Virus record (IMG/VR): IMGVR_UViG_3300049491_000303 | Location: 1-23,668 of that record | Source: a virus | Length of the DNA: 23,668 bases | Strand: one strand, 5' to 3' | The notes under the pieces: model-generated | Databases searched by the model: none | What the model saw: only the letters and a program-made list of their open reading frames with translations | Told to the model about the DNA's origin: nothing | Made by a program: the position numbers and the translations under genes | Shown here: positions 393 to 1,618 of the stretch, piece by piece | How the letters are laid out: each line of letters begins with the position of its first letter | Numbering within the stretch: position 1 is the stretch's first letter

Positions 393-1618
393 TCCGCGTG
401 GGGTCACTCTTCACCGGCTACGGCGGCCTCGACCTGGCCGTCCATGAGGTCCTCGGCGGCGCCACGGCGTGGGTGTCGGACATCGACCCCGGCGCCAGGC
501 GCGTGCTCGCCCACCGGTACCCGGACGTACCGAACCTCGGTGACATCACCGTCGTGGACTGGGCGGCCGTGGAGCCGGTCGACGTCCTGACTGGCGGGAG
601 TCCCTGCCAGGACCTCAGCGCGGCCGGGAAACGCCTCGGGATGCGCCCGGACACCCGGTCCGGGCTGTGGTCACACATGGCCTACGCCATCAGTGTCCTG
701 CGGCCGGCAGTGGCCGTCTGGGAGAACGTGAGAGGAGCGACCAGTGCCGCAGCCGATTGCGACGTGGAACCCTGCGCGTGGTGTGTGGGAGGTGCCGGGG
801 ATGGAGAGCCTCCTCTGCGAGCACTCGGCTGTGTTCTCGGCGACTTGGCCGACCTCGGGTATGACGCGGCGTGGGTCGGTGTACGAGCTTCCGACATCGG
901 CGCACCCCACAGTCGGTACCGGATCTTCCTCACCGCGTGGCTGGAACCTGGCGACCCCCACGGCATCGAGCGCGACGGGTGGGAGGCCGCAGGACTCGCG
1001 CGGGAAACGGGACCTGCGGTTGGATCTGCTGCCGACTCCGACGGTGTCGGACACGAACGGGTCGGGGAGCCACGGCGACGGCGGTCCAGATCTCCGGACC
1101 GCCGGCGCCCTCCTGCCGACCCCGGATGCGACGCACGGCCGGAAGACGACCCGGACCAGCGTCCTGCTCCCTGGGGTCGTGGAGACGCTTCTGCCGAAAC
1201 CCAGAGCGACGGACGGCGAGAAGGGCGGCCCGAACCAGCGCGGGTCGCGCGGGGACCTGATGCTGACGAGCGCGGTGATACTGCTGCAGGTGATCTGCGA
1301 GCACGGGCTGCTACCGACTGGGGGCCGTTTCGCGCCGCCATCACCCGATGGGAACACGCCCTAGGCCGCCACGCCCCCGCACCCACCGAGCCGGGAGAAA
1401 ACGGACAGCCGATGCTGTCACCTCGGTTCGTCGAGTGGATGCAGGGACTCCCAGACGGGTGGGTCACCGACCCCACCATCTGGCGTGGCGTCCGCCCCGC
1501 CAGCGCCCGCCGGCAGCAGCTCAAGGCGTTGGGGAACGGGGTTGTCCCGCAGCAAGCCGTGCACGCCCTCCGGTCCCTGTTCCTCACCGTACCCACCCAA
1601 CGCCAGGAGGCGTCATGA
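389..1618 (+). CDS. C5-cytosine-specific DNA methyltransferase (phage Dcm type)
   Basis: This 409-residue protein would transfer a methyl group from S-adenosylmethionine to cytosine in DNA, probably to protect phage DNA from host restriction. Visible motifs are motif I (SLFTGYGGLD, residues 6-15), motif IV with the catalytic cysteine (GGSPCQDLS, Cys73), motif VI (WENVRG, 111-116), motif VIII (APHSRYRIF, 172-180), an LSPRFVEWMQGLP segment typical of phage enzymes, and motif X (ALGNGVVPQQA, about 380-390). The ATG at 389 overlaps the previous stop and begins just before motif I, so the in-frame ATG at 143 is too far upstream. Between motif VIII and the C-terminal block (about residues 190-320) the chain is Arg/Asp/Pro-rich with no clear target-recognition fold. 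This is exactly where a second frame (744-1364) is open. Confidence 0.93.
   Translation: MIRVGSLFTGYGGLDLAVHEVLGGATAWVSDIDPGARRVLAHRYPDVPNLGDITVVDWAAVEPVDVLTGGSPCQDLSAAGKRLGMRPDTRSGLWSHMAYAISVLRPAVAVWENVRGATSAAADCDVEPCAWCVGGAGDGEPPLRALGCVLGDLADLGYDAAWVGVRASDIGAPHSRYRIFLTAWLEPGDPHGIERDGWEAAGLARETGPAVGSAADSDGVGHERVGEPRRRRSRSPDRRRPPADPGCDARPEDDPDQRPAPWGRGDASAETQSDGRREGRPEPARVARGPDADERGDTAAGDLRARAATDWGPFRAAITRWEHALGRHAPAPTEPGENGQPMLSPRFVEWMQGLPDGWVTDPTIWRGVRPASARRQQLKALGNGVVPQQAVHALRSLFLTVPTQRQEAS
731..746 (+). promoter_or_regulatory. Internal ribosome binding site and GTG start of the nested frame
   Basis: AGAGGAG (731-737) is followed six bases later by GTG (744-746). The site lies inside the methyltransferase gene, where the same bases encode the ENVRG residues of motif VI. 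It is a near-ideal Shine-Dalgarno sequence at near-ideal spacing, and it is the main reason for taking the nested frame seriously. It could be a coincidence forced by the conserved V-R-G codons. Confidence 0.5.
744..1364 (+). CDS. Nested overprinted ORF with LPTPxAxD repeats inside the methyltransferase
   Basis: This 206-residue frame is in the +1 frame relative to the methyltransferase and wholly contained in it. It starts at GTG after a strong ribosome binding site. It reads like a real protein: an N-terminal ATWNPARGVW segment, then WPTSGMTRRGSVYELPTSA, then four degenerate repeats of a Leu-(Pro/Ala)-Thr/Lys-Pro-x-Ala-x-Asp-x-x-Gly-Gly type (LATPTASSATGG, LLPTPTVSDTNG, LLPTPDATHG, LLPKPRATDGEKGG), followed by NQRGSRGDLML. 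From memory, similar segments occur in phage cytosine methylases and in hypothetical proteins beside them, but no search was done. Possible roles are a separate small protein, a domain reached by +1 frameshifting, or a conserved-looking shadow. No function is assigned. Confidence 0.5.
   Translation: MPQPIATWNPARGVWEVPGMESLLCEHSAVFSATWPTSGMTRRGSVYELPTSAHPTVGTGSSSPRGWNLATPTASSATGGRPQDSRGKRDLRLDLLPTPTVSDTNGSGSHGDGGPDLRTAGALLPTPDATHGRKTTRTSVLLPGVVETLLPKPRATDGEKGGPNQRGSRGDLMLTSAVILLQVICEHGLLPTGGRFAPPSPDGNTP

Follow-up and report, generated by a model that had tools for sequence, protein, structure and literature searches.

A gene overprinted on a phage C5-cytosine methyltransferase probably encodes its target-recognition subunit

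The C5-cytosine methyltransferase gene of a GC-rich phage (A) contains in its +1 frame a second gene (B), which is probably a real, separately initiated overprinted protein that serves as the target-recognition (beta) subunit of a naturally split methyltransferase. This conclusion comes from comparative sequence analysis, in which conservation, start-codon covariation, and selection tests place B far above chance. Target recognition is the most likely role for B because relatives carry its LPTP modules in the frame of A between motifs VIII and IX, or carry motif IX, with or without motif X, in the nested frame.

A second gene nested in the methyltransferase gene

The window analyzed here is the whole 23,668-nucleotide stretch of IMG/VR record IMGVR_UViG_3300049491_000303, a GC-rich phage fragment with terminase, portal, protease, capsid, and tail genes. 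All window features described below lie on the + strand. Gene A (389-1618, 409 aa) encodes a C5-cytosine methyltransferase among the relatives of M.HhaI. Its start overlaps the stop of an upstream HNH-endonuclease-like gene (3-392; phrog_740, E=4e-25) in the sequence ATGA, suggesting that the two genes may be translationally coupled. A contains the core motifs of a C5-methyltransferase: the SAM-binding motif I (GSLFTGYGGLDLA, within 401-439), the catalytic PCQ loop of motif IV (SPCQDLS, 599-619), the ENV of motif VI (WENVRG, 716-736), and motif VIII (GAPHSRYRIF, 890-928). A motif IX-like segment, LSPRFVEWMQGLPDGWV (1415-1465), and motif X, QLKALGNGVVPQQA (1517-1558), were both assigned by pattern; Pfam recognized neither motif in any protein of the A/B set. 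The Pfam match of A (PF00145, E=1.2e-27) covers residues 3-186 and ends there, and the matches to phrog_116 and phrog_363 span the whole length of the protein, C-terminus included.

Gene B (744-1364, 206 aa) lies wholly within A in the +1 frame. A sequence-only reading of the window had pointed out this frame and placed its start six bases after AGAGGAG, and both observations hold: the GTG start codon is at 744-746, and the Shine-Dalgarno-like site at 731-737 is supplied by the rare AGA Arg codon in the ENVRG of A. The first ~60 residues of B form an N-terminal domain, B1 (PQPIATWNPARGVWE...TWPTSGMTRRG), encoded in a double-coding stretch (744-946) that in frame A encodes a segment ending in motif VIII, so that the APHSRYRIF of motif VIII is read in the A frame inside the overlap, as had been noted. 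B1 is followed by LPTP-type modules (948-1244), which we propose to be a modular target-recognition region. The four repeats reported earlier as LPTPxAxD-type were all located (LATPTAS at 948, LLPTPTVSD at 1026, LLPTPDATH at 1110, and LLPKPRATD at 1188), but only two contain an exact LPTP and the other two are variants. LPTP-type sequence is absent from A in the window. As that reading had also stated, A turns rich in Arg, Asp, and Pro from about 940 to 1310 and has no clear target-recognition domain between motifs VIII and IX in its own frame; this spacer (938-1310) runs from motif VIII to the C-terminal domain, and the modules sit over it in frame B.

The sequence of B found no match in Pfam, NCBIfam, or PDB, and an HNH domain in particular was not matched in Pfam, PHROGs, or NCBIfam. 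Against PHROGs, B matched phrog_1008, annotated 'DNA methyltransferase', with E=1.7e-29. The first part of phrog_1008 matches B of the window and its last part matches the C-terminus of A, so that the window matches it in two different frames, a relation not reflected in a family named only methyltransferase. A tblastn search with the 206-residue translation, which had been suggested as a check, found matches in 247 phage records, nearly all of them actinophages.

AlphaFold2, run on alignments built without rows from annotated phage records, predicted residues 1-50 of B at a pLDDT of 84-92. The LPTP modules reached only ~50 pLDDT and were unresolved in either frame, and a Foldseek search with the B model returned no structural match, so the DNA-binding role of the modules is one that we infer.

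Selection acts on both reading frames

The earlier suggestion that both frames are constrained over the part encoding motif VIII is borne out by the silent sites of A. In 98 independent pairs, divergence at the 4-fold sites of A was 0.259 over B1, lower than the values of 0.391 for the upstream part (Wilcoxon p=2e-11) and 0.490 for the C-terminal part (p=3e-13). The LPTP region behaves differently. There the third codon position of frame B evolves faster than the other two in 61/61 independent pairs, indicating that B, not A, is the constrained frame and that A encodes a relaxed spacer. The nested frame thus dominates selection in this region, as had been proposed.

Methyltransferases of T4-like phages, in which the +1 frame is full of stops, were used as a control set without B. 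Over the corresponding stretch their silent sites are no more conserved than elsewhere (10/56 vs 27/134), although with three pairs this is a small control. The freshwater relatives of KashFlow were left out of the control set because they contain another conserved +1 frame. In six of these freshwater phage loci (L253, L254, L259, L268, L269, and L274) a second conserved nested +1 frame overlaps motif VIII, ending in three of them (L253, L254, and L274) in a YFLSPKACAGILRRAxxRGKxLPxxL-type segment, and the silent sites of A are strongly constrained at this frame too.

A broken nested frame beside a conserved methyltransferase would speak against B, and such cases were found only where they are expected: in the T4-like phages, which have an ordinary in-frame recognition domain, and in one locus (L090) in which the LPTP modules have moved into frame A.

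The length of the open frame carries less information. The open run of the nested frame in the window is 210 codons, compared to a mean of 194 after shuffling the synonymous codons of A (p=0.32). Since the length test reached significance neither in the window nor in most GC-rich loci, we dropped length as evidence there. At loci with a GC content of 0.43-0.55, open +1 frames measure 180-329 codons, with p=0.001-0.02 at each locus.

The start signals of the nested gene covary

Of 170 non-identical loci, 76 can start B at the GTG/ATG position of the window. Another 66 have lost this first start, and in these the AAT Asn codon in the ENV of A creates an ATG six codons upstream. The remaining 28 loci have neither start, some having a start codon slightly further along. 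AAT is used in 66/94 loci without the first start but in 8/76 loci with it (p=7.6e-16; background 17%), and GGTGAT precedes the upstream ATG in 39/66 compared to 8/76 loci (p=9e-10). Conversely, the Arg of ENVRG is encoded by AGA or AGG in 58/71 loci with the first start and in 7/80 loci without it (p=4.8e-21), compared to an AGR share of 9.7% among the Arg codons elsewhere in A. The Fisher tests count related loci as independent, and because the loci are related these p-values overstate the independence of the observations. The two start alternatives replace each other across the locus set.

Homologues move modules and motifs between the two frames

We gathered more than 200 loci (230-odd) from viral contigs, bacterial genomes, and annotated phages. 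Nearly every one encodes B1 in the +1 frame relative to the part of A with motif VIII. When A alone was used as the query, all nine loci found (9/9) had B1 in this position. The loci fall into three layouts. In the first, the window type, A is complete and B, consisting of B1 and LPTP modules, is nested within it. In the second, A ends after motif VIII and B runs on into motifs IX and X; 36 loci have this layout, including those of Dorothy and Orcanus, and the overlapping genes 8 and 7 of Ryadel are arranged likewise. In three such two-gene phages (L003, L006, and L238) the modules are fused to motifs IX and X, which exist only in the B frame. In the third layout frame A itself encodes LPTP modules, either some or all of them, in the stretch separating motifs VIII and IX (L090, L094, L070, and others). 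The C-terminal domain is encoded in A in 143 loci, a count that includes the loci of the third layout. In five loci (L002, L005, L062, L070, and L081) LPTP modules occur in both frames, those of B first and those of A after the B stop, which suggests that the modules may be exchangeable cassettes.

The arrangement extends beyond Actinobacteria. At 43-55% GC, an open +1 frame is found in phage methyltransferases of Acinetobacter, Vibrio, Salmonella, Paenibacillus, Bacteroides, and Lacticaseibacillus, as well as on an Acinetobacter plasmid, a Leptospira plasmid, and a methanogen plasmid. Most of these non-actinobacterial frames have a B1-like start, at least one LPTP/WPTP-type module, and a motif IX-like segment (e.g., NPxWVEWLMGWPxGWT), and A retains motifs I-VIII and X. 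The motif IX-like segment is in B at L234-L236 and L239-L247. In a Stenotrophomonas phage, B is the only annotated one of the two genes. The two-in-one layout occurs, mostly unannotated, in phages and genomes across many bacterial phyla and on one archaeal plasmid. Together, the three layouts and the non-actinobacterial loci indicate that the family moves modules and motifs IX and X between the two frames, and that B is the half that completes the methyltransferase.

Several loci depart from these layouts. A prophage homologue in E. coli PCP07014 (L248, 1501-2262) has a stop in both frames and is annotated as a pseudogene. Two metagenomic loci (L025 and L055) encode the N part of the methyltransferase in the frame of B1 and the LPTP modules, with a different frame for motif VIII and the C part; these look like a one-base slip or a sequencing error. 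At about 32 chromosomal loci of the Streptomyces family (from a set of 33 that comprises L105, L110, and loci within L118-L176), frame A is broken in the catalytic loop by a conserved +1 shift at TG[TC] CAA A GAC, where skipping one A restores the consensus PCQDVS. This site is a candidate for programmed +1 frameshifting at a rare AGA codon, in which case three forward frames would be in use.

Comparison to known split and modular methyltransferases

A literature search, mostly outside subscription journals, found no paper describing B. M.EcoHK31I may share the nested arrangement: Lee et al. in 1995 reportedly found its beta gene inside the alpha gene in another frame, and B is likewise nested in A in the +1 frame. 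M.EcoHK31I and M.AquI are established naturally split C5-methyltransferases made of two polypeptides (PMC3404938, PMC3439449), and natural splits are cited as exceptions among C5-methyltransferases (PMC3404938). In M.EcoHK31I (YGGCCR), the alpha subunit has motifs I-VIII and X as well as the recognition domain, and the small subunit has motif IX (PMC3404938). This division of motifs is that of the non-actinobacterial loci with motif IX in B (L234-L236 and L239-L247), but in the window IX and X stay in A and B consists of B1 and LPTP modules only. In M.AquI (CYCGRG), the second of the two polypeptides contains the distal recognition region together with motifs IX-X (PMC3404938), the same content as in the two-gene relatives L003, L006, and L238, whereas the second polypeptide of the window lies entirely inside A and ends short of both motifs. 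The window therefore matches neither system exactly, because its B has the recognition part only.

The methyltransferases of the Bacillus phages SPR, phi3T, and rho11s are multispecific C5 enzymes with several short modules between motifs VIII and IX. The window resembles them in having several modules in a phage orphan methyltransferase, its specificities being putative; their modules, however, are in the same frame and chain, and those of the window are on a separate overprinted protein. A hidden gene has also been described in mycobacteriophage methylases, the HNH endonuclease of the ShiLan domain (PMC11855218). It resembles B in being a second gene that lies out of frame within the DNA methylase gene of an actinophage and starts with GTG. 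However, ShiLan encodes an HNH, is a homing insertion, and has no detectable ribosome binding site; B, by contrast, shares its bases with the coding sequence of A as far as motif VIII, retains conserved signals for ribosome binding, and contains a putative recognition region. In gene 113 of Mycobacterium phage KashFlow (L249, 1480-3003), the +2 frame in the methylase is HNH endonuclease-like and of the ShiLan type.

Alternative explanations

Conserved methyltransferase residues in GC-rich DNA could cast a shadow that resembles a second protein, and B1 does sit over conserved residues of A; genes as GC-rich as these also often have an open +1 frame (p=0.32 for the window). However, the LPTP region is conserved in B and unconserved in A, the silent sites of A show constraint in the overlap whereas T4-like methyltransferases lacking B show no such effect, the start signals covary, long open +1 frames persist at 43-55% GC, and motifs IX and X of the two-gene phages are in the B frame only, making such phantom conservation very improbable. 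We give still less credence to the idea that sequencing or assembly frameshift errors, or gene decay, have split a single methyltransferase. The two metagenomic loci L025 and L055 do resemble genes that slipped by one base somewhere between the N part and motif VIII, but many isolated phages and bacteria with finished genomes show the same relation of frames, and the codons are constrained in both frames.

Two further explanations accept that the nested frame is translated. In programmed frameshifting, which had been raised as a +1 shift from the methyltransferase start, ribosomes starting at A would move into the LPTP modules by a +1 shift once past motif VIII and return by a -1 shift ahead of motif IX, yielding one complete polypeptide. 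Such a chain is structurally possible, as the modules are in the frame of A in L090 and L094, and the CAAAGA site in motif IV of the ~32 Streptomyces-family homologues indicates that the family may frameshift elsewhere. On the other hand, the window would need two shifts, a scan of the B-to-C junction in 105 loci showed nothing conserved upstream that could act as a slippery site ahead of the C domain, and the start codon and Shine-Dalgarno site of B are conserved through covarying alternatives; this makes frameshifting the less likely course. Moreover, B1 lies upstream of any such shift and would be made only by independent initiation, and it is constrained and predicted to fold. We consider frameshifting unlikely, and find it equally hard, or slightly harder, to believe that B is a real protein with some other role (e.g., anti-restriction or DNA binding) for which the methyltransferase gene is only a vehicle. 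The hidden out-of-frame HNH genes known in phage methylases (PMC11855218), with one HNH-like frame in KashFlow, set a precedent for a passenger of this kind, and B of the window is without motifs IX and X. Nevertheless, no HNH or other known domain is found in B, many relatives within the B family have motif IX, with or without X, and in single-frame relatives B-type modules stand where the recognition domain would be.

A putative split methyltransferase and its implications

A target-recognition subunit encoded by B thus remains the favored explanation, and it agrees with the earlier proposal of an overprinted partner that sets target specificity: modules are at the recognition position in L090 and L094, and L003, L006, and L238 have B-type modules joined to motifs IX and X. 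In such an enzyme A would bring the SAM-binding and catalytic core, motifs I-VIII together with IX and X in the window phage, and B would bring the small B1 domain and a string of LPTP modules that replaces, in trans, the target-recognition domain between motifs VIII and IX. The conserved, covarying signals suggest that ribosomes would start B at GTG 744 from the internal Shine-Dalgarno site. The product would then fold through B1, whose conservation is observed and whose fold is predicted, and would bind A so as to put the modules at the site of the recognition domain, as the position of the modules and the fused and split relatives suggest. The A-B complex would methylate the phage DNA, presumably against restriction. 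Because A keeps motifs IX and X in the window phage, it could have some activity without B.

Overprinting could be the general design of a large, cross-phylum class of C5-methyltransferases of phages and mobile elements, a proposal that we advance tentatively and with slightly more doubt than belief. In this class the catalytic subunit would be fixed in one frame and accompanied by an independently translated, overprinted subunit with exchangeable modules, and modules, motif IX, and motif X would have moved between the frames many times. Specificity could then be changed with the catalytic chain untouched. If B is the common counterpart of such split enzymes, many annotated phage methyltransferases are half-annotated, the specificity subunit having no entry in the gene table, and an enzyme cloned from the annotated ORF alone may be inactive or wrongly specific. 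B and its homologues would then amount to a large family of overprinted genes in bacteria and their phages, with genuine double coding across a catalytic motif, and would allow a direct test of how recognition modules evolve.
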